From positions 64,097,932-64,161,931 of the forward strand of contig OZ024872.1 of assembly GCA_964017185.1 (NCBI GenBank): DNA of 64,000 nucleotides, in the 5' to 3' direction. The position numbers and the translations under genes were made by a program. This DNA is from Rugalucina vietnamica (taxonomy: Eukaryota > Mollusca > Bivalvia > Lucinida > Lucinidae). This document shows, piece by piece, positions 4,212-40,922 of the stretch (position 1 is its first letter; each line of letters opens with the position of its first letter). The notes beneath the pieces are model-generated. The model searched no databases and was not told the origin of the DNA. It was given only the letters and a program-made list of their open reading frames with translations.

Positions 4212-4407
4212 ATTTGAAGTGCTGGAGTATAACTAGAATCCATATTACTGCTTTCATATAATTTCATATATTTCAATTAATAAAGTATATAGTCTTTTCC
4301 TGTGTTTGCGAAGCAGGGTTTGTACCGAACCTGGTCAAAAACTAGGAGATGTTTTCTGTGACACTTGAAAATTGTCCGCACATTATTATTCAGCACAACC
4401 TATTCAT

Positions 4408-5546
4408 ATACTAATGTCCAATGAAAACGTACCACCTACAAAAGTGTAAAAAATATGTTTTTGACTGAACATTTCAGTTTGTCTATTTGATATTTCATTA
4501 CTGTGATAACCTGTTCAAATCATGGCACGTTCGCAAATCTGTCTGATAAGTGATGCTCCGAGGATAAAGCAACCAAGACGTTAACCGTCAAAATGAAAAT
4601 CACAAAAACTGTATTCGAATGCGCCAGATGTGAATAAATTTTCAATCACGCATCGACTCGCGCCTAGAAGATGCATAACGTCGAAACATGAAGAATTCGA
4701 CAGTCAGTGTGCTTCGAAAACGTCAACGTGGAATTCTTGACGTCATAAGCAACATTTTGACCGCTGCACAATAACAGAGACATTAAAAAGGCAATCAAAT
4801 GTCTGCAGCAAAATTGCGATTAAATCATAGATGTGAGCCGTTTTGTCCAGAAACCTTGCCCATTACATCATAAAGGCTTAGGATTTTGATGTTTAATGGC
4901 TAACGTAAAGCGTTAAAATCGCAAACACGTTGGACCTAAATGACCTGTACATCTTTTATTGTACGCTTACATTTATCTCGACAAACAAAAACGATTTTCA
5001 GAAATTCTGACTCGATAGCGTTTCCGGAAGCGGCTGGATAGAAGCTTAAAATTGACGTCAGTCATCGAACGTCATTCTAGAAAATGATTTCGGTGACGTT
5101 TTGCATATGTTAAGATTCGTATTCCCAAAATAAACTGTTTTTTGGGATATCTGTATGAAAGAAACCGTTTGTGAACGTTTTTTGACCGAATTTGCAAGAC
5201 TTTGCGTTTTTGAGGCGTGCATGGTGACGCGAAGAGCGCTTTTACCGTGTATTGTGATGCGATGTAGTGGTTGACTAGGCGGCGAATAGTTCGTAGAGCT
5301 ACTCGCATACGGGAAAATCATTTCCGGGATTTTTGGATCAGTCATAACTTACGTAAAATTGAATAAACGTAATTTGTAGTCTGACGTAACGTCGCTTACA
5401 AACCGTCGCGGGGGGATAAACTTTTGGCGTAGAAACATTGTATTCAACCTATATAACATAAGGAAACATCATATGTGCACAAAGGTTTTGATATCCCGCA
5501 ACTAAGAGCATCCGAGGAGTGGTACGTTTTCATTGGACATGAGTAT
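4408..5546. mobile_element. 1.14-kb non-autonomous TIR element with TA flanks
   Basis: A 28-bp inverted repeat (left 4408-4435, right 5519-5546; core ATGTCCAATGAAAACGTACC) differs at one position between the arms. A TA dinucleotide at 4409-4410 and 5544-5545 fits a Tc1/mariner-like target duplication, which would make the ends CTAATGTCC and CTCATGTCC. The interior has no convincing ORF on either strand. It holds two perfect TGACGTCA octamers, at 4738-4745 and 5053-5060. Confidence 0.65.
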
Positions 5547-6250
5547 GTATAATGAAAATCAGCCGATGCATGTTCTGAAAGATCTCTTTAAATTTATATT
5601 TTATCATTGTAATCCTTAGCTTGTTCGAAATTACTTCGAGGTCTTTGCTCTAGACGTATATGTCTAACCACAATGTTAACAAATCGTAATTAAACATGAC
5701 CTTTGCAAATGAAATATCTAGACTTGTTATTGCATTTAACTGCCTGCGGGTAGGGGAAAACATGTTTCAATTTTGTTGCCTGGAAAAAAAATATCTAAGC
5801 GGAAGAGGAACGGTAATTAGCGTCGCAAAACGCCATGATTAGCCCGAGGCTGTAACTGGCCATTTACATTTACATTTAATTAATTAATAAACGATTTTCG
5901 TCAAAACTTAAATAAACAGAAAACCCTATTTTAACACCAGCTCCTCGAAACGGTAAGACCAACAGCAATGAAAACAAAGTATTTCCTCACAGCATGTAGG
6001 ATGTTCCGCTGGTTCTTCCAATCTTCAAAATCCCCAATAGTGTGTAAGACCAATGAATATGCAGTTGCCGAAAGTGCCAAAATCGATTTTACACATCAAT
6101 TGGTACAATGAATTTGCCCGCAATTAACAACCTCTCTGTCATAATATTTGTTCTAATAAAATTTTCAATATTTACAGCTGAAAAAAATCTGTGTATTTTC
6201 AATCTTGGCATGAATCATAAGAGCGGGTAGGTATTTGGTGAGTAGATAAG
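5547..6250. other. No recognised feature
   Basis: AT-rich sequence without a supported ORF. A short AAAATTTTCA...CAGCTGAAAAAAAT motif near 6162-6193 resembles sequence beside the H hairpins (22.5 and 26.2 kb) and may be a small old repeat. Confidence 0.5.
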
Positions 6251-6254
6251 TAAC

Positions 6255-6704
6255 TGCGTGGGATTCAAGGTGGACAATCACGTGACAAAAATAAATTATT
6301 GTGTACTAGTATTCGGACAGAACCATTAAGCAAATCGGCCATAAATTTCTCAAAACTAAATGAAATTTCACGGGGTAAAGTGTACATACCCCGGAACGGT
6401 ACGTTTTAAACAGCAATATAACGGTCAGTATAATATGCTGTCTAATAGATTCCCCCGATCAACTTGATTTATATTTTAACACCAAGGTTGCTCGGGGTTA
6501 TCTAGTAAACAAAAGTGCACAATATATTGACTGTTGTACAACGGTTTAGAGTTTATCATTCCGAGATATGTGCACTTCACCCGAAGAAATTTCATACAGT
6601 TTTTAAGGAAAATACTGCCGGTTTACCAAATGGTTATGTCCGAATACTAGTACACAAAAATCAATTTAAGTCACGTGATTATCTATCTTGGGGAGTTAGA
6701 CCGA
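6255..6704. repeat. Large imperfect fold-back (inverted repeat) element
   Basis: Two arms of roughly 115 to 200 bp are inverted copies. The left arm starts near AATCACGTGAC (6277) with TGTGTACTAGTATTCGGACA; the right arm carries the complement, ending at GTCACGTGATTAT near 6683. Arm identity is roughly three quarters, with a loop around 6460-6505. This fits an old fold-back MITE. No ORF spans it convincingly. Confidence 0.7.
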
Positions 6705-6744
6705 GTGAGTGTTGATAGAAGGGAGCGTCTGGCAGACGGAAAGT

Positions 6745-7045
6745 TTCGGATCAAATTACAGTATAATGAGGCTGCAACCAACAGTCTTAAATAAACCTTT
6801 TGTGAATGCAGACACGTGATAACAATAATATGTGATATAAACGTAGATAGTAATAACCCATCTATACAGCATCTTAAGATTAATACACATTTGTAAAAAC
6901 CATACACAGCAATATGAAAAAGAGACGATTCTTCATCTTATTTTGACACAGTTTTGCATTTCATCTACACTAAACTAGTGCTTTATACAGTTATATACAT
7001 ATTGGTATTTGTATCTCGCCTGCTTATTGCTGTCTACATGCTTAG
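6745..7045 (+). repeat. Interspersed repeat K, copy 1
   Basis: Shares TACAGTATAATGAGGCTG, then an AAACCTTTTGTGAATGCAGAC block, then a TCTTATTTTGACAC block and finally GTATCTCGCCTGCTTA with copies at 27240-27600 and 28450-28800. Family identity is unknown. Confidence 0.65.
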
Positions 7046-9692: not shown

Positions 9693-10371
9693 CCTGAATT
9701 TGTGCTACTTATGCATTAGTTCATTGGACAACCTGAGTCTGTGTTCTGTCTTGCCAGCCATGAATTAAAGCTGTTGTGTGTCTTGCTTCTATTTGCGTGA
9801 CGTTTCGCCCATTTCGGTGCAGTTTCGCCCATCTCGGTGAAATTCCGCCAAGCTAGGCGACACCCTTAATATGATTTAGTCTTCACTATTTGATACTATG
9901 TTAATGAATGCAATACTTTGATATTTTAGGGAATTATTTGTCTAAGGTGTTGAGTTGTATAACTGCAAATATTAGGATTTAATGCATACTTTTAAGGTTA
10001 GGAGCTGAGTTATACAACTTCATGTATTGTACTTACACTTATATTTGAATGTTAGGGAATAGTAGTGTAACTGTCTCTCTTTAACTGCAACTGCACTGAC
10101 TTAGTATAACTGCAACTGCATTGATTGAGTATAACTGTAACTGCATCTACTAAGTATACTTGTATCTACACTATCTTTCAAGCAATAGTAAATGCACTGA
10201 ATTTAATTAGATCTATACCTGTAACTGCACTAGGTTAATTCTGTTATGTATAGCTTCAACTGCACCTAACTGTTTCTTTAATAAATACGTATTAGTGTAA
10301 TTGTATTAATAGTAAAAAGGTGTATCCATTGATATTGTATTCTTATAAAAATAAAATGTGTATATTTGAAT
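9693..10371. other. Non-coding, short degenerate AACTGCA repeats
   Basis: From about 10078 to 10270 a degenerate unit of 25-35 bp recurs (TAACTGCAACTGCACT, GAGTATAACTGTAACTGCAT and similar). From 9795 to 9860 short GTTTCGCCCATTTCGGTG-type motifs recur. No gene was seen. Confidence 0.6.
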
Positions 10372-10570
10372 TGCTTCAGCCATCATATTGTTAAGAAACA
10401 AAATAGATTTAGAAAATTGAAACAATGGCTCAAGTGTCATTTCACTCCCAAGTAGCATAGCTATCAGCCCAGGTCGGATCCACATAAAATTCCTAGTGAA
10501 TTCATTGTGACTGGTCACCTATCCTGACAATATAAAGAGAGTATACACTCGACCAGGTGGTCCCGTTGCA
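10372..10570 (+). repeat. 5' LTR of Gypsy-type element
   Basis: TG...CA-bounded; matches 14423-14623 almost base for base, except for a two-base GG insertion in the 3' copy. A TATA-like AATATAAAG lies at 10530-10538, upstream of TACACTCGACC. Confidence 0.85.
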
Positions 10571-10573
10571 ATT

Positions 10574-14276: not shown

Positions 14277-14422
14277 TGGATCTTGCCAATCCAATTCGTC
14301 TTATAAAGAGGCGAACGAGTGTGTAGAAATTGCACAAGATAATATACGTGATAATATGGAACAGATATGGCGAAAAACCACTTCGGTCTACGGTGGCACA
14401 TTTGAGTAAATAACTCAAAGCT

Positions 14423-14623
14423 TGCTTCAGCCATCATATTGTTAAGGGAAACAAAATAGATTTAGAAAATTGAAACAATGGCTCAAGTGTCATTTCACTC
14501 CCAAGTAGCATAGCTATCAGCCCAGGTCGGATCCACATAAAATTCCTAGTGAATTCATTGTGACTGGTCACCTATCCTGACAATATAAAGAGAGTATACA
14601 CTCGACCAGGTGGTCCCGTTGCA
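14423..14623 (+). repeat. 3' LTR of Gypsy-type element
   Basis: Direct copy of the 5' LTR, preceded by the purine-poor AATAACTCAAAGC; no clear polypurine tract is visible, which agrees with the decayed state. Confidence 0.83.
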
Positions 14624-14756
14624 ATATTGAATCTTATTTAGGTACTAAGAGAAACGACTGTGTTCCTTTCCGTAGATGTCAGGGTATTTTTTTGCATATA
14701 TCCGTGTATCAATCTACGGTCAAATCAATCGCTGCAGCATTGCTGGTGTGGTGTTT

Positions 14757-17100: not shown

Positions 17101-17383
17101 AAACTATTGAAGTGACCACGGCAGTGTAGCGCTAAATACAAACCGCGATGAACTATTATTATAATGAAGAACGGACAGGCACAACAGGCATAATCAATGA
17201 TAAAAATCATGTCTTAAGCATGTCGTTTATAGATTAGAAACCGAAATAACAATTTGTATCGAAATAATTGGGGACGAATATGCCTAAGGCTTGCAAAGAC
17301 CGCAGACTGATGACCGCCGACCGAATCACTACCAATGGCCTCTGAGCAGTCCTTTTAATTTGAAACGTTAGTAACTTTCAAAA
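17101..17383 (+). repeat. 283-bp direct repeat, left copy
   Basis: Nearly identical to 17785-18066: both begin AAACTATTGAAGTGACCACG and end GTTAGTAACTTTCAAA, with a handful of substitutions. The copies enclose a 401-bp segment with a tRNA-like sequence. The repeats contain a TGAAGTG...CTTTCA core that could be read as TG...CA, as in a miniature LTR element, but no primer site was found. Confidence 0.9.
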
Positions 17384-17784: not shown

Positions 17785-18066
17785 AAACTATTGAAGTGAC
17801 CACGGCAGTGTAGCGCTAAATACAAACCGCGATGAACTATTATTATTATGAAGAAGAGACAGGCACTACAGGCATAATCAATGATAAAAGTCATGTCTTA
17901 AGCATGTCGTTTATAGATTAGAAACCGAAATAACAATTTGTATCGAAATAATTGGGGACGAATATGCCTAAGGCTTGCAAAGACCGCAGACTGATGACCG
18001 CCGACCGAATCACTACCAATGGCCTCTAAGCAGTCTTTTTAATTTGAAACGTTAGTAACTTTCAAA
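17785..18066 (+). repeat. 283-bp direct repeat, right copy
   Basis: Partner of 17101-17383; identity is visibly above 95%. Confidence 0.9.
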
Positions 18067-18406
18067 CTTTTAAGTGTCCCAGTTGAAAAAAACAATCAAT
18101 TTACTTTTTGTATGTCTACAGCTTTACATCCTAAAATAATCATATTGACGAATAAACAATCTTTTAAAACCGGACTTCTTTTTTTCTCGGATGGATATCT
18201 ACATGGAACTTTTCCATTACAGTTATAGCTATAGAATAATACATTGAAGGGTTGAAGCTATAAAAAATGAGCCGAAATAAAAACAAATACGTCGTTTTTT
18301 ACCTTCAACATAGATTCAGCAATGAGAAAATATCGATTTGACAAAGTGTTATGAACACGCATTGGCACGGGATTCTGGTCAGTACCTGTTCAATAATGTT
18401 AGAAAT
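18067..18406. other. No recognised feature
   Basis: AT-rich spacer between the direct repeat and the large TIR element. Confidence 0.5.
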
Positions 18407-18506
18407 CAACCTATGGAAACGGTGTATTAGGAAAACGGTGAATCAACGGGGGTTAATCGGAAAAATGTGAAGCATCGGGCGATGTGTCGGTGAGACATCG
18501 GGATTT
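18407..18506 (+). repeat. Left 100-bp terminal inverted repeat
   Basis: Begins CAACCTATGGAAACGGTGTA and ends CATCGGGATTT. Contains internal motif copies ATGTGAAGCATCGGGC and GGTGAGACATCGGG. Ninety-nine of 100 positions match the right end. Confidence 0.93.
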
Positions 18507-18861
18507 ACAATGGCGACACGGTACGTAGTTTTCATCTTCTTTTTGTTTTGTTCCGACATGGCTGGGTGACGTTGCATGTCAAAATTCTGTTTGCTGCAGG
18601 AGCTGTAGAAATCATTATTGTTCTTTATTATGTAAACAGTTTGTAAATAAATATTCCAAGAAACGCGTGATTGTGCGCCCAATTTTAGAGGGCATGCCTT
18701 TCAAGGCCACGAAAACACATTTTCGTTTGATTTTCTAGTAAAAGAAATGGACCAAGAAGGTCACGTTGGTATTTGCAAACGAATAATAGTTTACTGGAAA
18801 ATTCCCACAAAAAAATAAAATCTCGCCAAACATTGCAAAGGGATTTAATGCTAGGTGCATT

Positions 18862-18928
18862 TACATAATGTGAGGCATCGGGCAAGTTGTGTGAGACAAC
18901 GGGGCAAATTTTGTGAGTCATCGGGCAA
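18862..18928 (+). repeat. Left subterminal repeat block
   Basis: Three spaced copies of a TGTGAGRCAWCGGGCAA-like motif (ATGTGAGGCATCGGGCAAG, TGTGAGACAACGGGGCAA, TGTGAGTCATCGGGCAA). The same motif occurs in the TIR, and inverted copies lie at 24758-24837. This spacing is typical of transposase binding sites in other families. Confidence 0.7.
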
Positions 18929-19334
18929 TCAAAACTTATTGCATTAATTTCCGATTATAAACACTCTAGAGCTATTTTGGATCAAGGTAATTTCATATTC
19001 CGTGTCATCTTCGACCCGGTAATTTCATATTTCGCATCATCTTTGACCCTTTCTTGTTGGGAAATTAAAGTGCTAGACCGACAAGTGTAAAACGCTAGCG
19101 TTCACCTGAATCATTGCCAGTGCCAGACGCACTTGTGTGAAAATCGTTCCCAAACGGATTACCGTTCATTTTAAACTCAACCCCAACTGTAGTAATTTTG
19201 TAAAGTCCAGTAATATTTTGAGCAATTACATAGCGTCATCACCAAATTGCATTTTTAGTTCCGATGAGCCGTCCGTTAACTGCTAACGACATCTGGAAAT
19301 ATTTTCGGAAATATTAGTTTGTTTCTTTGTTTGA

Positions 19335-19490
19335 TTGGTGCTTTACTTCCCACTCAACAGCTGTCAGGTCATATGGAGAAGGGGCCTCGGTTTAAAGTCT
19401 CATCCGAAAGACTGGAGAAGCCCAGGATCGAACACACGACCCCTGATTTACAAGGCCAGTAGCTTGGCCACCATGCCACGGAGGCTTCTA
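19335..19490 (-). mobile_element. tRNA-derived SINE fragment
   Basis: The minus strand shows an A-box-like GTGGCATGGTGGCCAAGC and a B-box GTGTTCGATCCTG about 40 bp apart, then body sequence. The antisense AGGATCGAACACACGACC lies at 19425-19442. The 3' tail was not identified. Confidence 0.6.
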
Positions 19491-19679
19491 AGGAAATATT
19501 AGTGATTGCCGTGAAACTACAAATTGCAGTTTTTCAAACATCACTCATATTTCAGAAAAATATGAAGCCTCACTGGCATGTATATAAACGGCCCATGCCA
19601 ACGGCGGCCGCCACGTCCATATATTGGTAAAGTCCTTTAAAAATATTCTCCAGAACTCAAAGTTGTTCCATGATCTGAA

Positions 19680-19912
19680 AGTGGTTCAAGTCATAACCAT
19701 GATTTGACATTGAATTGCGAATATATCGAGATTGAATGGTGTTGTTGTGTAACGTCCTAATCAATAATTTTTCATTGCCACCGCTTCCGGGGTAGTTGGC
19801 ATATACTTTGGGGAGATTAAGTGTCACGTCCAAGGACACTACAAGATGATCAGGGTGTTCGAATTCCTGACTTCTCGCTCTGGAGTCCGGCGCGCTACCA
19901 CATAGTCTCAGT
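19680..19912 (-). mobile_element. tRNA-derived SINE fragment
   Basis: The minus strand starts with ATGTGGTAGCGCGCCGGACT (A-box-like), then a B-box-like GGAATTCGAACACCC, then a body containing GTGTCCTTGGACGTGACACTTAA and a late GGACGTTACAC, the kind of GGACGTTAAA sequence that ends molluscan SINEs. Confidence 0.6.
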
Positions 19913-19927
19913 TTACCAGGTAAGTTC

Positions 19928-19966
19928 TAGAGGACCAATGGCCATGAGAGCGCTCACCTGAAACTT
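19928..19966 (+). repeat. Terminal fragment of repeat D
   Basis: GAGGACCAATGGCC... GCGCTCACCTGAAAC matches the left end of D copies at 32339, 43446 and 62402. Confidence 0.55.
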
Positions 19967-20295
19967 TATATACTGTCTTATATGTCCTCGTTTATAGGCA
20001 CAGAGCTTGGGTAGTAACACCCCCAGGGGAACTACTTTAAATTAATGAAAATAAACCTTCTGACTGATACGCATTTCTGCATTCTATGTTATTCGTATCA
20101 ACAGTGGATCTTTTTGTTTTTTCAGCCTGCTTATGCGTTAGCCTCGAATTCTGTTAATTGGCAGTAATTTGTTGTTTAAAAAATGTGACAATGTTAATGT
20201 CGGTCGTTAATTGTGACTTATGTCCTTTTAGGACTGACCATCGTTAAAGTCTGACTTTCTTGATTATTAAAGGTTATTTCTTTACCTTTCTATCC

Positions 20296-20440
20296 TCACC
20301 GGTGGCACCGGGTTGTGTCCTTAAGCAAGGCACATTAACTATCCTTAGTTCTTGTTAAATGCCCGGGAAGCGGTGGCCCCGTCCAGACATGACTGAATAG
20401 TTGCTGACTGGGACGTAAAGCCTTAAATTCAAACAAACCA
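20296..20440 (+). mobile_element. SINE 3' fragment
   Basis: Contains GGGTTGTGTCCTTAAGCAAG and, near the end, GGGACGTAAAGCCTTAAATT, the same order as in the SINE at 45822-46012 (TTGTGTCTTTGAACAAGG ... GCGACGTTAAACC). Confidence 0.6.
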
Positions 20441-20493
20441 ACTATGGTACAGCAAGGTCAAATTGGACTAAATTTACCCCGCCGTATACCGCT

Positions 20494-20725
20494 GGATGCA
20501 ATCAAATTCTTACAGCGCAGATTGATGCAGCGACACACGAAACGTGACAAAAATGGAGTTTACTGATTGGTAGTCAGATCGATTGAGCAACAACCTACAG
20601 TGAAAAGTTCATTGCTGTGTTGTAGGTTGTTGCCTAATTTATCCGGCTTCCAGTCAACACATTCCCTTTCGGCATGTGCCTTGTGATATTGCAACAATCT
20701 GCGCTGTAAGAATTTGGTTGCATCC
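20494..20725. repeat. Nested fold-back
   Basis: Outer arms of 36 bp (20494-20529 and 20690-20725; core AAATTCTTACAGCGCAGATT) have three mismatches. An inner perfect hairpin CAACAACCTACA / TGTAGGTTGTTG lies at 20587-20631. Confidence 0.75.
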
Positions 20726-21274
20726 GACAGTATATATGGTGTATACATTTATATACGACAAATGACAGATTTGGTAAAATTACGGTATATACATATAAAA
20801 ATGTGACCCAAAAGAAACGTCTTTGGGCTGCATGACCGAAGTAACTGCCACGCCCGTAGCTCATCGAACGTTCATATATCGCATCACATCTATATTATTC
20901 AGTGGATAAGGTCATGCCATAAAATGAGATGACCACATGTGTAATAACATATTAATTAGTAACGTCCGTGACAACGATATTTTATCAAAGAAAAAAAATC
21001 TCTAAACTCTTATAATAAAAATGTTACATTTCATATGAAATTTATGATACACGCCTATGAAATGACCACTAATGATCGTTAATGTAATACACGAACTTCT
21101 GTCATGCTTTGGTACAATGACCTTTCTTCCGCTTATTCTGTCACTTAACAACGAAAGAATGTGCACCCCCATATAGCGGGGACGTGTCCGAGGCGAAAAA
21201 ATGTGGGGGTTTAAGGGGATGCCGATCTTAATATCTAATACTTGTTATAAAATTTACCTGTACAAAGGAAAATT
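20726..21274. other. No recognised feature
   Basis: AT-rich; no supported ORF. Confidence 0.5.
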
Positions 21275-21509
21275 GAGCCTGTGCATGAGAAAACGAACAA
21301 TTTGGAGTTTCGACCACGTCCGATACAAATCAGGCTGTACAGTCACAGAAGCAGGCTAGACTCTTGAAATTTTGGATTTAAGAAAAAGAGGAATTGTACT
21401 ATCTGCGTAGCGAAAACAAAGACGCTGATCAGCTTCGCGGTTATCGGGAAGCTGGTTTGTGCCTTTGTTTTCGCATATGCAAATTGTTGGTTTTCTCATG
21501 CGGTGGCTC
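21275..21509 (+). mobile_element. MITE family M, diverged copy
   Basis: Same layout as 3983-4211: GAGCCTGTGCATGAGAAAAC start, AAGAGGAATTGTACTATCTG core, GCTGATCAGCTTCGCGGTTA hairpin (now imperfect on its right side) and GCAAATTGTTGGTTTTCTCA end. Confidence 0.8.
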
Positions 21510-21810
21510 AATTGTGATTTTACCAGGAATACTGATAGTAATTCTTTCTATATTTTTGTGCATGTATGTGCAGTTGGTCCAACAAATGCAGATTAATTTA
21601 TGTCCAAATATGTATTTTGGTGGTCTCACTAAATTGCTTATCAGCCATTTACAAGTTGCTCCCTTGTTTGATTCTGTTCACATCTGTGTGGAATGCTGGA
21701 TAAATTTTAGACAAAACTGTTACCACAATCAGGATCTGCAGTCATCTAACTACAATGTATCCACACCAAGCTACAATTTTCTGGTAGAAAGCTTAAAATT
21801 TACCATGGCG

Positions 21811-22051
21811 GCCCCCGTGGCCGAGTGGTTAAGAGCGTTGATATTTCATTACCGCACTTAACCATTCGATCATCTCACCGCTGTGTCTGGTGTGGGTTCG
21901 AGCCCCGCTCTGGCCATATGTGAGACAAGCCAAGTTCTGCTTGCGGGTGTGTCAGGTGGTTTTTCTCGGGGTTCTCCCGTTTTCGCCCCACCTACTGATT
22001 GGCCCGTCTCATATGAGCTGAAATAATCTTGAAAGGGACGTTAAACTGAAT

Positions 22052-22092
<41 letters not shown>
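21811..22092 (+). mobile_element. tRNA-derived SINE with poly-A tail
   Basis: The head contains an A-box GTGGCCGAGTGGTTAAGAGC of Ser/Leu (class II) type and a B-box GTGGGTTCGAGCCCC. The body includes GAGACAAGCCAAGTTCTGCT and TTTCTCGGGGTTCTCCCG, and ends GAAAGGGACGTTAAACTGAA followed by about 40 A. Copies at 26838-27062 and, inverted, 23938-24240. Confidence 0.88.
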
Positions 22093-22095
<3 letters not shown>

Positions 22096-22393
22096 CATAT
22101 TGCTGTTTCCTATTATCAGCAAAAATGGTGAATAATACGTTTTCTGCTAGAAATACATACGTACATCTTGGTGGAAATACCTTCATACACTATTCTAGAA
22201 TAACAAATACAGAAATATCAGGACCCAGTTGTTAAAAACACTGTTGGCTTAACGCTATCGTTGCTAACAAAACTAGCTACATAATGAAATGTACTGTTAT
22301 TTTTGTTGAAGAAATGTGAGAATCCTCTCTCATCATGCAGAAATGCCCGTCCATCTTACCCCACTTTTATGTAGCAAGGGTATCCTTATTTTT
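22093..22393. other. No recognised feature
   Basis: Spacer without recognised feature. Confidence 0.5.
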
Positions 22394-22495
22394 CTTATTT
22401 TCGTTCCAAAGCATAGATTGTGGGTACTCATTAGAACCGCATCAGCGAGGCGGTTCTAACGAGTACCGACAATCTATATTTTGAGCCAAAATAAG
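22394..22495. repeat. Hairpin element H, copy 1
   Basis: 46-bp arms around an 8-bp loop. The left arm holds CATAGATTGTGGGTACTCAT and TTAGAACCGC; the right arm is the complement with about seven mismatches. Copy 2 is at 26270-26368 and a broken trace lies near 43183-43215. Confidence 0.8.
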
Positions 22496-23333
22496 AACAT
22501 TATAAAACTTTTTCAACTGAAAATTTTCATTTTTTTACAGCGGAAAAAATCGCTGTGTATTGTATGGGCGTGTTTTCGAAATGTCAGTTTTTACTGTATT
22601 TTGAATATTTATGATTGAATTTTTTACGAATTGTTAACTAACGCAGTCGGCAATTTTGAACAACTGGACCCAGGTAACTGAGTCAAAGAACTAAACTATA
22701 GATTACGATACGTTCCTTTTTACGGAGCTGTTTCCGTGATTAAAAAAAAGTTTTATGTATGCTGATGTTTTGGTTGATACGGCAAATCGAAAATAATGCA
22801 TGCTAGCCAATTAAACTGAATTCATCATACTTATGATCATGAAGTAAAAAACAAAACAAAAAAGTATACATATATAATTTTACCTTCAAGTCTGAATATC
22901 CAACAAAAATGGGAAATCCAGTACATGTATTGTAACTTGTGTTTGGCAAAAATGTAACCTTTGATATTCTATTTACACAAGAGATGGCAAATCTCACACA
23001 GTACTTTATTATTATGGTAATATCAAGGGGTTCAACATAGGATAGTTTTGGTGGACATTTTTTCGATATTTCAAAATCATTTTTCTCTTTGTTGTTATAG
23101 TGAGTGACCTAGTGCACCACCATGTGGAGGCTATTCCACAGTAATGGAAACTGAAGCAAACCGGGAATCAACTTGAAAATGGCTGGTAAAAAAAATTGCT
23201 GAGACCTCTAAAAGTGCATATTTGGGCACAAATTAATCTGTGTCTGATGTTCCAACTGCACATACAAAATATGGAAAAAACTATCACTATTCCTGATAAA
23301 ATCACCATTTGCATTCAGCACTCCGAGTAACAC
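22496..23333. other. No recognised feature
   Basis: AT-rich; no supported ORF or repeat. Confidence 0.5.
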
Positions 23334-23470
23334 AAGTAACTCGAGTAACATTGAATGCCGACACGAGTTAAGTGAGAGTTACAGATATACGCAAGCACAT
23401 GACGTAGATAGGTATGCGCATTACTGTAACTCGTGCTGTTTGGCCTTGTTACTCGAGTTACTTTTTGCGA
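23334..23470. repeat. Fold-back with AAGTAACTCGAGTAACA arms
   Basis: AAGTAACTCGAGTAACA near 23334 is complemented by TGTTACTCGAGTTACTTT near 23450; inner ACACGAGTTA / TAACTCGTGC sequences extend the pairing. The centre holds ~70 bp of loop. Confidence 0.65.
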
Positions 23471-23937
23471 TCTCGCCACGGCGAGAGCGCATATATAATT
23501 GAACAGGGCTGGAATCTTGTTGTTAATCGACCACACTTCCGGTCGTACTTGATTGGACAAGGCAGCTTCGATTGGGTCACACTAAATAGCGCATGCCGGC
23601 TCGGGTATGAAAGCTCACGTTGAACCGAGCTGTCAGAATCTTTTCGGTCTGTGGTTATTGCCGTGGATTTATACGTGGTCATACAGTGAAATTAGTGCTG
23701 AGAGATCGCAAGCGTTTTGGAAACGCTTATACTTGTGTTACTCGGATAGTCATGTCGAAAATCCTCATTTTTCCCATGAGAAAATAAATGTCCAGTCGTG
23801 TGAACTGAGCAACAAAAGGAGACCGAACCTAAAGTTAACATCAATTAATACCGTCAGGTATGCATTGTCCCGGTATATTGTAAAGCTAATCAAACTTGGG
23901 AACCTGTCGAAATGTCATGTTTTACGAATCAGTTATT

Positions 23938-23947
23938 ATTATTGATA

Positions 23948-24000
<53 letters not shown>

Positions 24001-24240
24001 GATTAAGTTTTACGTGCCTTAAAAGCCAATTATTTCACTCATTAACAAATCAGTAGGTGGGGCGAAAATAGGAGTACTCCAGGAAAAAGCACCTGACACA
24101 CCTGCAAGCAGAACTTGACTTGTCCCACATGTGACCCGTGCGGGGCTCGAACCCTACACGGCGCTCGTGGGGATCGAACCCAGGACCTCTCGCTCCAGAG
24201 TGACAGTCTGACGCTCTAATGCTTCAGCTACCGCGCTCTA
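23938..24240 (-). mobile_element. tRNA-derived SINE with (AAT)n tail
   Basis: Minus strand: GGTAGCTGAAGCATTAGAGC A-box, GGGTTCGATCCCC B-box, then a second B-box-like GGGTTCGAGCCCC and the shared body (GACAAGTCAAGTTCTGCTTG, CACCTACTGATTTG). It ends in AAAACTTAATC followed by (AAT)n, seen on + as about 20 ATT units at 23938-24000. The two consecutive B-boxes suggest a head replacement or dimer. Confidence 0.8.
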
Positions 24241-24757
24241 GGGGTGCTGTGACTGTGGTATCTTTGTCCCTAGATCTCACAAGAAACGTTAAGCTTCGAC
24301 ACGCAATCATCTGGCACCTCAGCGGTAGACATCGGAGGGGGCATTTCAGGCCCTGATAATTTTGGGAAAGAAGCTACCCCAATAGATACTGTTCCATGTT
24401 ATTTCCAAAGATTGGACCTGCGTTTACTGTTATAATTTTCCCAGTCTTCAAATCGGCAACCGAAGAAATTTAAGAATTGGAGACAGTATCTTTTCCAATT
24501 ATTTCTTACACGTTTTCATTTGCTTCAGCTTCATTTAACCAGCGAAAAAAAAACACTATATATATGCGAACAGTGCGATATGAAGGACGCTGCGGACGAG
24601 GAACGTCCGAGTTCTCATCACTGCCGGTGATTAACGTGTGTTTATAGCATCCGTAATTTGGATAGATATGATCCCACTCAAACTAAAAGTTAAAAAACAA
24701 CAATCATGTACTGGCTAGAATTAAGAAAATAAAGTTTTATTCCATCAAAATTTGGTT
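24241..24757. other. No recognised feature
   Basis: Unannotated interior of the 6.86-kb element. Confidence 0.5.
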
Positions 24758-24837
24758 GCTCCCCGGCGACACACACAACTTGCCCGGAGACTCACCAAAT
24801 AATCAATCACCCGGCTGAATCTCGATTTTCCCCGTCT
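24758..24837 (-). repeat. Right subterminal repeat block
   Basis: The minus strand reads GGTGAGTCTCCGGGCAAGTT and GTGTGTGTCGCCGGGGAGCA, homologous to the left block. The block is inverted relative to it, so the element has a two-layer inverted structure. Confidence 0.65.
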
Positions 24838-25167
24838 TTTTTACAAATTTTCTGAAGGTTGATAATCAGGAGCTTACTTTTCTATATTCACCAATTCGAA
24901 TTAAGGTTGTTTACATTCGTAATTCGATGTAAGCATAAAAAATAAACAAAAATACAACCGAAAGTCAACTGAAATGTTTGAGTAGTAAAATGGGGCGCAC
25001 TGTGGCGATTAAACAAATTACATTTTCAACAATTTTAGGGTTTCCGGGGCTGCATCAAAGACCCTTACAGCTCTTGCAAGTGTTCGATTTGTTTTTATTT
25101 TCTGCAGTATTATTAGCTTTCGCTTCAAAATAGAAGTAAAAAAAACAACATACCTTTTATCTAGTGC

Positions 25168-25267
25168 AAATCCCGATGTCTCACCGACACATCGCCCGAT
25201 GCTTCACATTTTTCCGATTAACCCCCGTTGATTCACCGTTTTTCTAATACACCGTTTCCATAGGTTG
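25168..25267 (-). repeat. Right 100-bp terminal inverted repeat
   Basis: Reverse complement of 18407-18506 with one difference; followed directly by GAAAT. Confidence 0.93.
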
Positions 25268-25270
25268 GAA

Positions 25271-25341
25271 ATGGCACCGGCTAAAAAATCGTCCCGAGCA
25301 CAGGAGTCTGGTCATGATAATACCAAGCGGGCTAACAGGTA
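25271..25341 (+). CDS. Possible first coding exon at transposon edge
   Basis: The ATG at 25271 overlaps the GAAAT target duplication and has a good context (GAAATGG). It opens 23 codons of a basic, Lys/Ser/Arg-rich peptide (MAPAKKSSRAQESG...). It stays open to AACAG|GTAAAT, a good splice donor at 25342. No following exon could be matched, and the peptide is too short to assign. If real, the 6.86-kb element sits immediately upstream of, and overlapping, a start codon. Confidence 0.25.
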
Positions 25342-25555
25342 AATTTCTTTTCATTTCTTCGTGTTCTTTGTCATCGTCGATTTTATCGTGTAGATCCTTG
25401 ACGATCGTAGTAGACTTCCGTCACAGATTAAAGTTAATATAAAATCTTATGAAAATACGAAAACAATCGGATGTCAATTATAGAAAAAAATATTAAGAAA
25501 GTCCTCAAACTTTTTGCTCGCCCCTCGTATAATGGACTTTTCTCATTGCCTCGTG

Positions 25556-25700
25556 AAGTCTTTACAGTATATAATACAAATGTTGAAGTATATAATGCGA
25601 ACTATGCAACATATAATCAAATGTGAGCAGAATTTGATGATGATGAATCAAATGGTTTTATTCCTTACCATCAGACAGCTTTGACTTTCCATATGTAATC
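25556..25700 (+). repeat. Interspersed repeat T, copy 1
   Basis: GTATATAATGCGAACTATGC, AATCAAATGTGAGCAG, GATGATGAATCAAATG and TTATTCCTTACCATCAGACA match 30593-30775 in the same order. Confidence 0.75.
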
Positions 25701-26269
25701 GTTTAGATAATGAATGTCCATGGAATCATTTATGATCTAAACGATGCCAGCTTTCAAAGTTACTTAGCATTTCCCAGAAAGTAGTACGTGTTGCAATATA
25801 ATATTTATGACGCATACTAAATACATGCAAGTATTATAATAATGTAAACTTCGTAATTATATTTATCAGCTTTTATACACAAAACAAATCGATTATCCTT
25901 CTGTCAAACGTCGATTTTATTTAAATGTCTAAAATATAAAATGATAATTCACTGCCTACCGCAGGCATTGCTAAAATGATTTGTCAATATGAAAAGTGTA
26001 CCATTAAGAAAACGGGGGGAACTAAATACAAATGGCTTCCACCAGCAAAACGTTAAGAGTTGTACCTCTTACATCAAAAAAGCCTAACAGTCATTGCCCA
26101 TGCGTATTCATTTTGTGTACGAATTAAATATCTCAAGAAAGCTGACAATGATCAATACGCCCCTTTTGACGGGTTGTCTTTATCGTTACGAAAACTTACC
26201 CATGCCATAAACAGAGATTCTTCGAGCTTTAAAAATTGAAAATTTTCAGCTGAAAAAAATGGCATTTTT
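25701..26269. other. No recognised feature
   Basis: AT-rich; no supported ORF. Confidence 0.5.
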
Positions 26270-26368
26270 CTTATTTTTGCTCAAAACATAGATTGTGGGT
26301 ACACGTTAGAATCGCCTTAGAGGCGATGCTAACGAATACACACAATCTATATTTTGGAACAGAAATAG
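26270..26368. repeat. Hairpin element H, copy 2
   Basis: ACATAGATTGTGGGTAC arm, AATCGCC-TTAG-AGGCGAT centre and the complementary right arm; aligns end to end with 22394-22495. Confidence 0.8.
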
Positions 26369-26489
26369 TGAAGAATATGTATACCCCTGCATACACCAGT
26401 TTTGTTATATAAAATTGGGGTTCAAGGAGGTATATATTACACGGATATGTTTTCGTGATGATCAGATGAACATTAGTCACCAACATGGC

Positions 26490-26611
26490 AGGCATGTACC
26501 AGCGGGATATCGAACCTGCAGCCTCCTGATTGCGGAGAGAATACGCTTTTCTTTACTAGACCGCTGACAGAACAAAAAAGAATTAATTGAGTGATTAAGA
26601 AACAGCGCTCG
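26490..26611 (-). mobile_element. tRNA-like SINE head(s)
   Basis: The minus strand has a TCAGCGGTCTAGTAAAG A-box-like and a GCAGGTTCGATATCCC B-box-like sequence. At 26590-26611 it adds a 22-bp exact complement of part of the SINE at 26858-26879, a small inverted SINE-head duplicate. Confidence 0.5.
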
Positions 26612-26629
26612 CTCGGCCCTAGAGTCAGT

Positions 26630-26765
26630 GGAAAAATGAGTGACTGAGTGGGTGAGTGACGAATGAAAGTGCATGCGTGAATTTGAGTGAGATTATCAGT
26701 GTGTTTCGGGGTGACGAAGTGTGTGGGTGAGAGTGAGTTAGTCAGTTTGAAAGTGTGTGAGTAAA
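26630..26765. repeat. Degenerate GTGAGTGA-type repeat
   Basis: GAGTGACTGAGTGGGTGAGT and related units recur; an apparent ORF on the minus strand is a by-product. Confidence 0.7.
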
Positions 26766-26837
26766 TACAAATGAAACTGAGATCCTTCAAAGCATAATTA
26801 TCAACACTACTCGTCTCTCTAACTTAATTGTTTTCAC

Positions 26838-27062
26838 TCGTGGTCGAGCAGTTAAGAGCGCTGTTTCTTAATCACTCGATCATCTCACCGCTGTGTCTGG
26901 TGTGGGTTCGAGCCCCGCTCTGGCCACATGTGAGACAAGCCAAGTTCTGCTTGCGGGTGTGCCAGGTAGTTTTTCTCGGGGTTCTCTCGTTTTCGCCCAC
27001 CTACTGATTGGCCTGTCTCATAGAGCTGAAATAATATTGAAAGGGACGTTAAACTGAATTAA
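26838..27062 (+). mobile_element. tRNA-derived SINE, same family as 21811
   Basis: Near identical to the 21811 copy from CACTCGATCATCTCACCGCT through GGGACGTTAAACTGAATT. The head is shorter, lacking about 15 bp after GAGCG. The tail leads into (AT)n. Confidence 0.88.
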
Positions 27063-27066
27063 AATT

Positions 27067-27100
<34 letters not shown>

Positions 27101-27102
27101 AA
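27063..27102. repeat. (AT)n microsatellite
   Basis: TATATATA run with one G interruption, at the 3' end of the SINE. Confidence 0.9.
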
Positions 27103-27239
27103 TCTTGTTATACAGGTCGGTGACCTGGATACAGATGAATCTAAAATCTTACAATTTTCAATACGACTACATTGTGAATGTGTTCAAGCTCATTTAAAAC
27201 CTTACAAAAAGATGGGAGTGTCAAGTGTATGTCAGACTG

Positions 27240-27600
27240 AAAAGTATAATTATGTTTAAGATCAGAATACAGTAAAATGAGGCTGAAACCAAATTCTAAT
27301 ATTATATCTTTTGTGAAGGCAGACACGAAATAACAATACTATATGATAAAATTGTAGATAACGATAACGCATCTATTCAGCCACTAAAAATAAATAATAC
27401 GCCTTTGTCAGAATTAAAATTTACCTCAAGGAAAATTAACAGTTCATGAATAAATTACGTATGTTTGAAAAGAAAGAGTGGGTACTTTCATCTTATATTG
27501 ACCCAAATTTGAATTTCTTCTACAAATAACTAGATTTTTTCATATCGTTTTTGTATATCGCCTGCTTGTATCACTGTGTATTGTAACTAGCAAGCGCAAG
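27240..27600 (+). repeat. Interspersed repeat K, copy 2
   Basis: ATACAGTAAAATGAGGCTG, CTTTTGTGAAGGCAGACACG, AGAGTGGGTACTTTCATCTT and TGTATATCGCCTGCTTGTAT are shared in order with copies 1 and 3. Confidence 0.7.
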
Positions 27601-28016
27601 TACATGTAAACAATCGCACCAAACATAAGATAAGGCGGACATAAAAAATGGCTGTGTTTGACTCTGACTTTTGCTCCAACCAATAACTATTTCACTTCCG
27701 CACTATTGACAATCTTTAACTATATATATGCTAACAAACATCAGCCTGATGACCCTTTTAAGATTTTAAGTTTGATTTTGGTATAAGTAATTAAAAATAA
27801 TTGTTAGATCCTTTGGATGCAGGAAACCATTCAAAGCGAGAAGATGGGTCATATTGTACAATTTCGGGTAAGGCCTTTTAATCCAATTTATTTTCCTTAT
27901 ATTTATTTTGACAACCCTAGCAATCCGATCTACTTTGTTACTTCATGAAGTACATGAAGTACATTATGATAAAGACACCCCTGCATTTTATAATGACACT
28001 CATGGTAACTTAAAGC

Positions 28017-34163: not shown

Positions 34164-34289
34164 TGTCGTGAATTGCCGCCTTCAATTTTTTTAACGCTCT
34201 TTAGTAGCACGTTACTTTGCACCGCGGTAACGTATCACGTATTCTTGTAAACGTCGAGTAGTAACGCTTGTCATTACGTTACTAAGTAA
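34164..34289 (+). repeat. 5' LTR of BEL/Pao element, truncated
   Basis: 126 bp that match 35577-35702 with few differences; then the deletion breakpoint. Confidence 0.88.
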
Positions 34290-35576: not shown

Positions 35577-35793
35577 TGTCGTGAATTGCCGCCTTCAATG
35601 TCTTTAACGCTCTTTAGTAGCACGTTACTTTGCACCGCGGTAACGTATCATGTATTCTTGTAAACGTCGAGTAGTAACGCTTGTCATTACGTTACTAAGT
35701 AAAACGTCACTTCTTGTATTGTACGCCATATTAAAAGTGTGAATAGGAAAGAACCTGGAAGAAAGTATTTCTATTTCTTATTGTTTTCCCAAA
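35577..35793 (+). repeat. 3' LTR of BEL/Pao element
   Basis: Starts TGTCGTGAATTG after a C-rich CGGCCCCCAGGA, ends in TTGTTTTCCCAAA before AACAC. Confidence 0.85.
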
Positions 35794-36640: not shown

Positions 36641-36824
36641 GGAGAGGATGCATACAGGCTCTGCCTATATCCAATTCTTTGACGTCTATATATATGCTTA
36701 TACTTCTTTCACCTTATTTGATTATTTGTATTGAATGTATGTATGTATATAGATATGTGATGGGTCAGGTCAGTTTAACTGCTACTGTAACATGTAATCA
36801 GTACTACCTGTTGTCATGCGGTGC

Positions 36825-37045
36825 AGATGGGGCTCGTTAGCCTTGGAAGGCAACTCATCTAGGAGTTAAGCTAGTTCTCTACACAAAATCTAGCTGGGCA
36901 GGGGGAACTCATTAGTCTTGGTTGACAGCCCTCCTAGGAGTTTACAGGTCTCTAAACAAAACCTAAGAAAGGGTAGATGGAGCTCTTCAGCTGTGGCCAG
37001 CAATTCATCTAGGAGAAGGAAACTCCAAAATCAAACCTGTGTGTC
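36825..37045 (+). repeat. Three ~72-bp tandem subunits in LINE 5' region
   Basis: CATCTAGGAG, CTCCTAGGAG and CATCTAGGAG mark equivalent points of three units, each followed in units one and two by a TCTCTA.ACAAAA block. The same array is at 48450-48670 in copy B. Similar monomers act as promoters in other LINEs; that role here is inference. Confidence 0.7.
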
Positions 37046-37647
37046 TGGATATGCCTAGTCCAGATATGCAAAGACTGTTTCGGTAGATGGAGCAGAAGAA
37101 ATCATCTGATTCAACGGTTCAGAAAGCGATACAGCAACATGTTGTGGAACATGCAGAGCGTGACCAGGCACTAAAGATGTTACGGTCATCCACTGCATCC
37201 AAACCCAACTCCAGACGTCTTGACCTGTGTCTTGCCTCTGGGCGCAGCTGTGCGAGGACTAGAGAGTGAGGTTGACGTTGCGCACCTCTTCCTCACTATA
37301 ATCCAATTTCATAGCGCATGTCATCCTATTTCTCAACACACAAGCACTTGCATACACAACAATTTCATCACACTTGCACCCACATACCTACAAAGTCCTG
37401 TGGCGATGGGCGAGTGGCGAAGCAGCAGGTGTAGGACACACTGGGAGCTGTAGTTGCAGACCTGCACACAGGCGGCTCAGTTCTAATGGTCGTTTTCTGT
37501 GAGGAGAAGCAGTAAGCAGAATTCGGCAGTCGGCTGAGAGACTGAGCAGACCTATTTAGGACCGCACTGCTCACCCCCGTAGCATGGGGAAGGGGCTAGA
37601 AAAGGTGCCCTAAACAATTGCCTGCTTCAAACCCCCTGGCTGGTTAA

Positions 37648-39256
37648 CCGCGATCAGCGGGGATCCCCTTAAGCGGTCGATATACAAAGAAAAAAGCTAG
37701 AGTAATCCCCTTACGGATTGGCGCATGGAATGTGCGCACTTTAATGGATAGTGCTGGGTCAGATAGACCACAGCGTAGAACGGCCCTCGTGGGCAGAGAA
37801 CTTGGGAGGTATGATATACAGATAGCTGCATTGAGTGAGACTCGGTTCGCAGATGTTGGGGAGATCAAAGAAGTTGGTGCTGGATACACCTTCTTCTGGA
37901 GTGGACGCAAAAGTGAAGAGAGGCGTGAAGCAGGAGTTGGCTTTGCCATCAAAACAGAACTTGTTGGTAAGCTGTCAGGATTGCCAAAAGGCATTAATGA
38001 CCGTCTAATGACATTGAGACTTCCTCTGTCAGGCAATAAACATGCAACTATTGTCAGTGCTTATGCACCCACAATGACCAATCCAGATGAGGTCAAGGAC
38101 AAGTTCTATGATGACCTAGACAATGTTATTTCTGCAACACCCCGCACAGACAAGCTTATCCTTCTTGGCGACTTTAATGCTAGAGTGGGTACAGACCACC
38201 AGACCTGGGAAGCAGTTATAGGTCCAGAAGGGGTTGGAAAAAGCAACAGCAATGGTCTCTTGCTTCTCAGGAAGTGTGCTGAACATGATCTTCTAATCAC
38301 CAACACAGTCTTCCGTCTACCTAATAGGAACAAAACATCCTGGATGCATCCCCGTTCCAAACACTGGCATCTCATAGACTATGTCATAGTGCGGAGAACA
38401 GACAGGCAGGATGTTAAAGTGACAAAGACTATGTGTGGTGCAGACTGCTGGACAGATCATAGACTGGTTGTCAGCAAACTCAACCTAAGAATACAGCCTG
38501 CGAGGCGACCTCAAGGCAAGAAAGCTCCTAAGAGACTGGATGTCTCAAAGCTGAATAAAGACAGCATGAGACAAGATTTCTTAACAGACATTTGCAACCA
38601 ACTGGATGCAATGAATCTCAGTTCAGAGGACCCCGAAGAAAACTGGACAGTTTTCCATAAAACAGTTCTTTCTTCAGCTGCAAGCACCTTAGGCCATCCA
38701 TCTCGCAAACATCAAGACTGGTTTGATGAGAATGATGATGAAATTCAGAGGCTTCTTGAAGAAAAGCACCGTTTGCTCAAGGCACATCAAGATGATACTA
38801 GCTCAGTATCAAAGAAAGCAGCCTACAGCAACATTTGTAAGACAGTCCAGACCAAGCTTAGGGACATGCAAGATTCCTGGCTGAGGAAGAAAACAGAAGA
38901 AATTCAGTCTTTTGCGGATAGAAAGGACATGAAGAAATTTCATGATGCACTGAAAACCATTTATGGTCCAAAGAGTTCTGGAGCCACCACATTGCTCAGT
39001 GCAGATGGAAACACTCTTCTCACAGATAAAGAAGCTATCTTGGAAAGGTGGGCAGAACACTTCAATAGTGTGCTTAATCGACCATCAAGCATCAATCAGG
39101 ATGCAATCGACAGACTTCCACAGATAGAGTGCAATGTTCTGTTAGATGAATTTCCTACCGTTACGGAAACAAGAAAAGCAGTTCAACAACTATCATCTGG
39201 CAAAGCCCCAGGTGCAGATGCAATTCCTGCAGAAGTTTACAAGGCTGGGGGCTACC
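37648..39256 (+). CDS. LINE ORF, endonuclease and RT N-terminus (copy A)
   Basis: The frame opens after TAA 37645-37647. Endonuclease blocks in order: [11 protein letters not shown] (about 37717-37749), [55 protein letters not shown] and DCWTDHRLVVSKL. A linker with DWFDENDDEIQRLLEEKHRL follows, then the start of RT (AVQQLSSGKAPGADAIPAEV). No ATG precedes the conserved IGAWNVRTL; the first in-frame ATG is at 37744, inside the domain. The frame is thrown off by the loss of one G at 39247-39251 (five G; copy B has six), so copy A reads into a stop soon after KAGGYPWQRN. Substrates are target DNA and the element's own RNA. Confidence 0.9.
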
Positions 39257-39257
39257 C

Positions 39258-40922
39258 ATGGCAGAGAAACTGACAGAGTTGTTTCACTGTATGTGGAGGA
39301 AGGAGGCTATCCCACAAGAATTTAAGGATGCATCCATAATCCACCTATACAAGCGGAAAGGAAATCCTCAAGTCTGTGACAATCACAGAGGCATCTCCCT
39401 CCTATCAATTGCTGGGAAGATACTTGCAAAAATTCTGTTGAATCGTCTGAATGCTCATCTTGATCAGACGGGACTTATCCTAGAAAGTCAATGTGGATTC
39501 AGAAAAGACAGAGGGACAATAGACATGTTCTTCACAGCAAGACAGCTTCAGGAGAAATGCCATGAACAGAATGTAGATCTATACATGACGTTTGTTGACC
39601 TCACCAAAGCTTTTGACACTGTTAGTCGTGATGGACTCTGGAAAATCATTGCCAAGTTTGGCTGTCCACCCAGATTCATAGCTATGGTGCGGCAGTTTCA
39701 TGATGGCATGCAGGCACGTGTGCAGAATGATGGAGAGTTCTCTGAACCATTTGAAGTAACAAATGGGGTCAAACAAGGCTGTGTTCTGGCACCAACACTG
39801 TTCAGCATGATGTTTTCTGCCATGTTTATGGATGCTTTTCAGGACAGTGACACTGGTTTTCCAATTAGGTACCGTTTTGATGGCAACATATTCAACCTCA
39901 GAAGGTTGCAAGCCAAAACTAAGGTCCAGACTGATGTGCTAGATGAGCTCCTCTATGCAGATGATATGGATAAGAATGCCAACACAGAGGCAAAAATGCA
40001 AAGAGCCATGGATCAAGTTTCACAGTCATGTGATAACTATGATCTCACAATAAGCACAAAAAAGACAGAGGTTGTACACCAACCAGCCCCCGGAAAACCA
40101 TATAATGAACCAACCATCACTGTGAATGGGCAAAAACTGAAAGTTGTTGACAAGTTCACCTACCTGGGACGCACTCTCTCCAGAGCAGTGCATATTGATG
40201 ATGAGATCACTGCCAGAATAACAAAAGCTAGTGTGGCTTTCGGAAGACTCCGTGCAAATGTCTGGGAGCGAAATGGAATCAAGCTTGACACCAAGCTGAA
40301 AGTCTACAAGGCTGTGGTACTGCCAACCCTCTTGTATGCATGTGAGACCTGGACAGTATACCAACGCCATGCAAAGAGACTCAACCATTTCCACTTAAGC
40401 TGTTTGAGAAAGTTGTTAAAAATCAAGTGGCAGGACAAGATTCCAGACACAGAGGTCCTGAGGAAAGCAGGGATGCAAAGCATGCATACAGTCTTAAAGC
40501 TAGCACAGCTAAGATGGACTGGCCATGTTATAAGAATGCCTGATGCGCGACTTCCAAAGAAAGTTTTCTATGGAGAACTACAGGAGGGAAAACGCTCTCA
40601 AGGTGGCCAGAAGAAACGCTACAAAGACACCCTCAAAGCCTCTCTGAAGGATTTTGAAATACCAATGGGGTCCTGGGAACAGACTGCACAGGAGCGATCA
40701 AAGTGGCGAGGTCTCATCAACAAAGGAGCAGCTCTCTATAAAAAGAAGAGAATCTGTGAAGCTGAAAGAAAGCGAAGAGAGCGCAAAGCCAAAACAAATG
40801 TGCCACCAGCAGACTCTATGACATTGACTTGCTCTACTTGCAACCGACAGTTTAGAGCCAGAATTGGCCTAGTCAGCCATCAAAGAACTCACCAACACAC
40901 ATCAGCACTATTCAAGAAATAA
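39258..40922 (+). CDS. LINE ORF, reverse transcriptase and C-terminal zinc finger (copy A)
   Basis: 554 codons open without interruption from ATG 39258 to TAA 40920-40922. RT blocks: IIHLYKRKGNPQVCDNHRGI, ESQCGFRKDRGTIDM, MTFVDLTKAFDTVSRDGLW, VTNGVKQGCVLAPTLF, ELLYADDMDKNA (catalytic box YADD intact), TISTKKTEVV and KFTYLGRTLSR. The thumb region (LYACETWTVYQ, LRKLLKIKWQDKIPDTEVL) follows. A basic tail ends with CSTCNRQFRARIGLVSHQRT, a C2H2-like finger. In copy B these codons are in frame with the endonuclease, so A's split is a mutation and not a two-ORF design. Confidence 0.93.
   Translation: MAEKLTELFHCMWRKEAIPQEFKDASIIHLYKRKGNPQVCDNHRGISLLSIAGKILAKILLNRLNAHLDQTGLILESQCGFRKDRGTIDMFFTARQLQEKCHEQNVDLYMTFVDLTKAFDTVSRDGLWKIIAKFGCPPRFIAMVRQFHDGMQARVQNDGEFSEPFEVTNGVKQGCVLAPTLFSMMFSAMFMDAFQDSDTGFPIRYRFDGNIFNLRRLQAKTKVQTDVLDELLYADDMDKNANTEAKMQRAMDQVSQSCDNYDLTISTKKTEVVHQPAPGKPYNEPTITVNGQKLKVVDKFTYLGRTLSRAVHIDDEITARITKASVAFGRLRANVWERNGIKLDTKLKVYKAVVLPTLLYACETWTVYQRHAKRLNHFHLSCLRKLLKIKWQDKIPDTEVLRKAGMQSMHTVLKLAQLRWTGHVIRMPDARLPKKVFYGELQEGKRSQGGQKKRYKDTLKASLKDFEIPMGSWEQTAQERSKWRGLINKGAALYKKKRICEAERKRRERKAKTNVPPADSMTLTCSTCNRQFRARIGLVSHQRTHQHTSALFKK

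Follow-up and report, generated by a model that had tools for sequence, protein, structure and literature searches.

How does a 6861-bp block of DNA move when it carries long, well-matched terminal inverted repeats (TIRs) and no plausible transposase? This question is raised by the element at positions 18407-25267 (plus strand) of a 64,000-nucleotide stretch of the genome of the lucinid bivalve Rugalucina vietnamica (G000:C4:64097932-64161931), which is referred to here as the window and numbered from its first base. Its TIRs, the existence of colinear copies and the presence of empty sites in the genome (1.09 Gb, 47 contigs) make it very likely that the element belongs to a family of non-autonomous TIR DNA transposons that is mobilised in trans by a cut-and-paste mechanism.

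Insertion of the element and extent of its family

The two TIR arms, located at 18407-18532 on the plus strand and at 25142-25267 on the minus strand, match at 116 of 126 bases. Their outermost 100 bases (18407-18506 on the left) form a near-perfect core whose single mismatch falls at position 25 of the left end: G in the window, A in the consensus of 34 family ends. Direct reading, together with the empty sites described below, identified the sequence GAAAT on both flanks (18402-18406 and 25268-25272). The 100-bp TIRs, identical at 99 of 100 bases, and the GAAAT flanks that a previous, sequence-only reading of this locus had reported were thus recovered at the same positions. The family terminus is CAACCTATGG, and the consensus of the 34 ends opens with CAACC, giving an element of the form CAACC...GGTTG. 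Over 100 bases, 26 of these ends are identical to the TIR consensus, four show one difference, three show two and one contains an indel.

The insertion is precise. When the two flanks of the element were joined with a single GAAAT and used as a query, 32 matches were obtained in the genome, two of which are the flanks in the window themselves. Twenty-four of the 32 reach across the junction, covering 30 bases or more on each side, at 87-95% identity, and half of these (12 of 24) do so without any change in length relative to the query. These 24 places are paralogous, rather than allelic, empty sites for the insertion in the window. The proposal of a mobile element thus survived this comparison, with the exact insertion and the duplication of GAAAT being visible at paralogous sites. 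Another copy, L040, has an empty site of its own inside copy L041, with all 185 joined bases aligned at 90% identity.

The insertion site itself (window 25268-25339 and 18312-18406) is a multi-copy sequence, with seven of the 24 junction-crossing paralogs located at C10:1.40-1.81 Mb. An ATG at 25271, within the right GAAAT, opens a frame of 23 codons that ends at a donor-like CAG|GTAAAT and would be followed by TAA if left unspliced. Given this frame, its donor-like end and the multi-copy nature of the site, the element may sit where a gene belonging to a multigene family begins.

Other copies of the element were compared using 20 loci, which were taken from the 40 best-scoring of 523 candidates and for each of which 10 kb starting at the left end were retrieved. 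The right TIR was reached in 12 of them, with lengths ranging from 3050 to 9530 bp. Exact 5-bp target-site duplications (TSDs) flank nine of these 12 complete copies, or ten of 13 with the copy in the window. The target, as judged from 29 distinct left flanks, is AT-rich, with the weak pattern A-W-W-Y-T.

A search of the whole genome with the first 24 TIR bases, allowing at most one mismatch, returned 254 forward and 251 reverse places (505 in total). The reversed 24-base pattern, used as a control under the same conditions, gave 0 + 0 matches, ruling out a chance pair of TIRs. With up to three mismatches allowed, the numbers rose only to 260 + 258 (518). The TIR pair is thus far from unique, and its 505 matching ends correspond to about 255 elements with very uniform ends. 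Among 100 exact-match ends listed, 82 form 41 convergent pairs spaced 2136-14509 bp apart.

The tree of the left ends is star-like, its inner branches are very short, and pairwise divergence has a median of 1.9%. Homologous stretches of the 20 sampled loci were compared with the copy in the window in bins of 100 bases: the difference is about 1% in the outermost bin and 0.5-6% in the others, except for one sparsely covered bin at the edge of a nested short interspersed nuclear element (SINE), where it amounts to 10%. The right TIR is not significantly less diverged than the following 500 bp (p = 0.11), and an apparent sharp drop in conservation at 600-650 bp proved to be an artefact of misalignment over indels. 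Collectively, these data show that this family of large non-autonomous DNA transposons is real and has expanded recently. Such elements are well known in kind; a literature search retrieved no description of this particular family. An exact search of viral contigs with the 24-base TIR gave no match in a set that may omit records of this genome.

Two loci with variant ends, L053 and L054, represent two further non-autonomous copies, the latter lacking the outer 19 bases. In addition, the end pairs C15:16551620/16556492 and C8:56542668/56546636 (both in G000) have identical outer flanks within each pair, and at G000:C6:60909578/60927965 two equally long elements are separated by 18 kb. These three cases look like local duplications or assembly duplicates.

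Interior of the element and its derivatives

The interior contains several nested repeats. A fold-back at 20485-20734 was detected by repeat search and recurs at the same place in other copies, and a second fold-back lies at 22370-22581. A repeat resembling a miniature inverted-repeat transposable element (MITE; 21262-21514, plus strand) is common to several family copies and has further copies in the window at 3970-4216 and 41164-41414 (77-81% identity). A tRNA-derived SINE with a poly-A tract occupies approximately 21807-22092 on the plus strand, with a second copy in the window at 26867-27064 (94.5% identity); it represents a later insertion, as the same site is devoid of it in four copies (L032, L033, L035 and L040). 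Another SINE, with similarly approximate boundaries, lies in the reverse orientation at 23958-24238 and has a tRNA-Asp-like head at 24160-24238. Close to the left end, repeat searches revealed two 32-bp tandem repeats (18986-19049, plus strand). Comparisons within the window thus bear out the SINEs, MITE and fold-backs that had been noticed from the sequence alone.

The absence of a plausible transposase, likewise noted before, is borne out by a Pfam search of all six frames of the element, which gave no match at E ≤ 1 and which a transposase lacking a Pfam model would escape. An Rfam search of positions 18000-28000 returned only four weak microRNA matches, all of them under the curated scores.

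L032 and L035 are colinear with the element in the window except at W 3401-3680, the position of the SINE at about 21807-22092. The internal MITE and fold-back are found at the same places in copies with other flanks, including L032, L035 and L040. The presence of the same interior at the same places between different flanks shows that about 6.6 kb moves as one block. An alternative composition, in which two unrelated MITEs serve as the ends, is contradicted by the finding that all 30 loci compared have the same left-type inner sequence and all 12 complete copies end in the right-type sequence seen in the window; it is further disfavoured by the fact that a C or T follows the exact inner end of the TIR at one place only. 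The remaining copies are internal deletions or carry retroelements. One and the same deletion junction (W 3042|5837) is found in L031 and L037, whose TSDs differ, so that a deletion derivative must have moved again. Several deletion junctions overlap by 2-4 bases, and that of L044 shows no overlap.

The sampled copies contain 43 open frames of at least 120 aa, 11 of which were covered by a domain scan. No transposase was found among these 11 frames. Five have retroelement domains, two have LRR domains, and one each gave DUF5641, cytochrome P450, a weak GIY-YIG match and no match at all. The retroelement frames comprise a 1066-aa APE-RT frame of a long interspersed nuclear element in L042, two gypsy-like frames in L045, a Pao protease in L043 and a reverse transcriptase (RT) in L040; an RT-like frame in L039 lies outside the scanned set. 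The frame in L042 belongs to a non-LTR retrotransposon (806-4003, minus strand; LTR, long terminal repeat) within a copy that has an exact 5-bp TSD, and L045 harbours a nested gypsy-like element (2877-6784, minus strand) with a SCAN domain and an integrase upstream of its RT. The GIY-YIG match in L050 (E 0.0055) is under its cut-off and, together with sequence common to L050 and L036, suggests a Penelope-like element. The inserts in L040, L042, L045 and L050 are flanked on both sides by family sequence. L036 holds the two LRR frames, and L043 the DUF5641 and P450 frames; no right end was reached in either locus, so the genes of both may lie outside the element. The suggestion that the element acts as a carrier of several kilobases of captured DNA therefore holds insofar as the 6.6-kb block moves; what could be recognised of its cargo consists of further repeats, and the element in the window yielded no captured gene.

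A further feature of the ends is an inward-facing 14-base motif, GTGAGNCATCGGGC, found at distances of 32, 61 and 84 from the end in both TIRs. On the left, these sites start at 18438, 18467 and 18490 (within 18438-18503, plus strand) and agree with the motif at 10, 12 and 12 of 13 positions; on the right, they lie at 25171, 25194 and 25223 (minus strand). Additional sites are located subterminally. A motif scan placed three of them at 464, 485 and 507 from the left end (18870, 18891 and 18913, within 18870-18926, plus strand), with a spacing of 21-22 bp that coincides with a Tandem Repeats Finder array at 18869-18928. One more lies at 473 from the right end (24782-24795, minus strand; also part of inverted repeat I7), facing the left cluster at 464-520. 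By comparison, shuffled 5461-bp interiors contain on average 0.52 matches. The more convincing part of this evidence is the mirror placement, and the array may provide binding sites for a transposase.

Several other repeats were observed in the window. Immediately to the left of the element lie two 282-bp direct repeats (17101-17382 and 17785-18066; 97.5% identity). The 204-bp direct repeats at 10371-10572 and 14422-14625, which are 99% identical and about 4 kb apart, resemble the LTRs of a degenerate retroelement. Two 126-bp direct repeats (34164-34289 and 35577-35702; 97.6% identity) adjoin a 454-bp tandem array and enclose a weak integrase (rve) match under its cut-off, and thus probably represent a shortened LTR element. 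Finally, 36764-40959 and 48389-53676 contain two copies of a repeat in the same orientation, with stretches of 1.8 and 2.4 kb that are about 98% identical.

The presumed mobilising enzyme

These observations are consistent with a model in which a transposase of the DDE/D type, supplied in trans, would bind to the inward-facing GTGAGNCATCGGGC sites, both those within the TIRs and those lying about 470 bp deeper in the element. It would cut the block out at its CAACC...GGTTG termini and insert it, by cut-and-paste rather than by another route, at AT-rich targets of the weak A-W-W-Y-T pattern, where a cut staggered by 5 bp would give rise to the duplication. The interior would then constitute dispensable cargo, carried in 6.6-kb forms and shortened in many derivatives, with the internal deletions possibly arising through interrupted gap repair.

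Several points weigh against this interpretation. Three of the 12 complete copies sampled depart from the 5-bp TSD: there is none in L034 and L035, and that of L050 measures 6 bp. Eighteen of the 100 listed ends have no partner within 40 kb, perhaps in some cases because the partner carries mismatches, and the left-end identity is biased by selection, as the 20 loci stem from the highest-scoring TIR matches. The GTGAGNCATCGGGC motif was derived from the same ends on which it is scored, has nine more matches scattered across the rest of the 64-kb window and occurs just once, instead of three times, in the left subterminal cluster of L046. Moreover, no autonomous partner with compatible ends was found among the elements read over kilobases (21 of about 255), so that we infer, rather than observe, the enzyme and its action in trans. 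Nevertheless, the ends are so uniform (505 of the 518 probe matches fall within one mismatch) that the mobilising enzyme should still exist or have been lost only recently, so that the search for it has a clear target.

The genome as a whole contains 3 RAG1, 116 hAT, 4 KDZ (Kyakuja-Dileera-Zisupton), 75 MULE and 16 CACTA (PF02992) transposase matches. The positions of the first four groups were compared with 203 mapped ends out of 505; none of these matches lies within 25 kb of such an end. For each of the 16 CACTA matches, likewise, the ends known on its contig are all more than 25 kb away. The list of exact-match ends is unbroken for C1, C2 and C3 up to 60.5 Mb, so that over three quarters of the genome was covered in part.

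The best-surviving alternative, which we regard as a serious contender while leaning against it, is that autonomous copies with the same TIRs persist and were missed, the element in the window being their internal-deletion or replacement derivative. Of the elements read over kilobases, 13 were followed to both ends, long pairs of up to 14.5 kb lie outside the elements read, and the domain scan covered only part of the open frames (11 of 43), leaving room for such copies. On the other hand, none of the scanned frames encodes a transposase, and around the ends tested a distance of 25 kb on either side contains no match to any of five transposase families.

The element could also be a hAT5-type derivative that is moved by a hAT transposase of this genome, which we consider rather unlikely. 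The CA..TG ends are usual for hAT elements, whereas TIRs of 100 bp are long for this superfamily, and the weak A-W-W-Y-T target is unlike the usual hAT pattern. Several of the 116 hAT-dimer matches lie in open frames of more than 500 aa; as stated above, none of the 116 lies within 25 kb of the 203 mapped ends. The hAT5 type is defined by 5-bp TSDs (PMC12730594), a feature that the element shares and that is not sufficient for membership.

We give the same limited credence to an origin within the CACTA/EnSpm-Mirage-Chapaev-Transib (CMCT) group or one of its neglected branches. The repeated subterminal direct motifs resemble those of CACTA elements, and the genome holds a CACTA-like transposase family with eight matches of equal score (51.4 bits). 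Open frames of 901 aa occur at six places (C4:15163307, C4:15297364, C5:35584318, C9:42372430, C11:17495831 and C3:34205844, the last with 50.4 bits), and this family is perhaps a recently active autonomous one. However, the frame at C3:34205844 lies in a stretch where the exact-match list is unbroken, with no end near, and the ends begin with CAA rather than CAC. CMCT elements mostly have CA..TG ends and TSDs of 2-5 bp (PMC12730594), both in agreement with the element.

It appears improbable, if conceivable, that the mobilising transposase represents an undescribed superfamily characterised by CAACC...GGTTG ends, a 5-bp AT-rich duplication, mirror-placed and directly repeated 14-bp sites, long TIRs and 6.6-kb blocks with nested repeats. 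The candidates that remain are hAT5, another CA..TG group and an undescribed superfamily, with the fits to hAT5 and CMCT unproved. The previous statement that the terminus matches no nameable superfamily holds for the superfamilies tested.

A non-autonomous RAG-like or Transib element using a host RAG1-like protein is very improbable: its 5-bp TSD fits, but CAC is essential in ProtoRAG and the TSDs of both ProtoRAG and Transib are GC-biased (PMC8289069), in contradiction to the CAACC consensus of the 34 ends and the AT-rich composition of the 29 left flanks. A RAG1-like coding sequence is present in the genome (PF12940, 273 bits; a 782-aa open frame at G000:C9:34097107-34099008, minus strand, near L051 and L052), with two more pieces at G000:C11:21950802-21958850 (plus strand). 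Stretches of 1.6 kb read close to the match on C9, one on either side, contain no copy of the TIR. MULEs, with their TSDs of 8-11 bp and no match near the mapped ends, do not fit the 5-bp duplication. The same applies to KDZ elements, whose TSDs measure 7-8 bp (PMC12730594).

Relation to known transposon systems

With about 255 large elements that carry no recognised transposase, the family records a recent wave of amplification in an animal genome. As its 6.6-kb form was inserted repeatedly with nested repeats inside, an element mobilised in trans can redistribute several kilobases of other DNA. It is this movement of the 6.6-kb form that sets the family apart from large non-autonomous TIR elements in general, with which it shares conserved ends, an interior devoid of a transposase and many deletion forms.

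With hAT5 elements, it has in common the 5-bp duplication, the CA..TG ends and the non-autonomous derivatives that are common in hAT, and it differs from them in its 100-bp TIRs with a motif array and in having no hAT match near the mapped ends. Its ends, its TSD length within the 2-5 bp range and its repeated subterminal motifs, the last known from CACTA, are shared with the CMCT group, whereas the CAA start, the AT-rich 5-bp target and the lack of CACTA- or RAG1-type matches near the ends tested distinguish it. Ginger2 and TDD elements are similar in several respects: Ginger2 TIRs measure 50-180 bp, the TSDs comprise 4-5 bp (5 bp in TDD-4/5) and the targets are AT-rich (PMC2836005). The combination of long TIRs with a 5-bp duplication, which the sequence-only reading had taken to be uncommon, is therefore, in light of these elements, hardly rare enough to single out the family. 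Ginger1 and Ginger2 themselves do not match, because their termini are TGTNR (PMC2836005), whereas those of the element in the window read CAACC.

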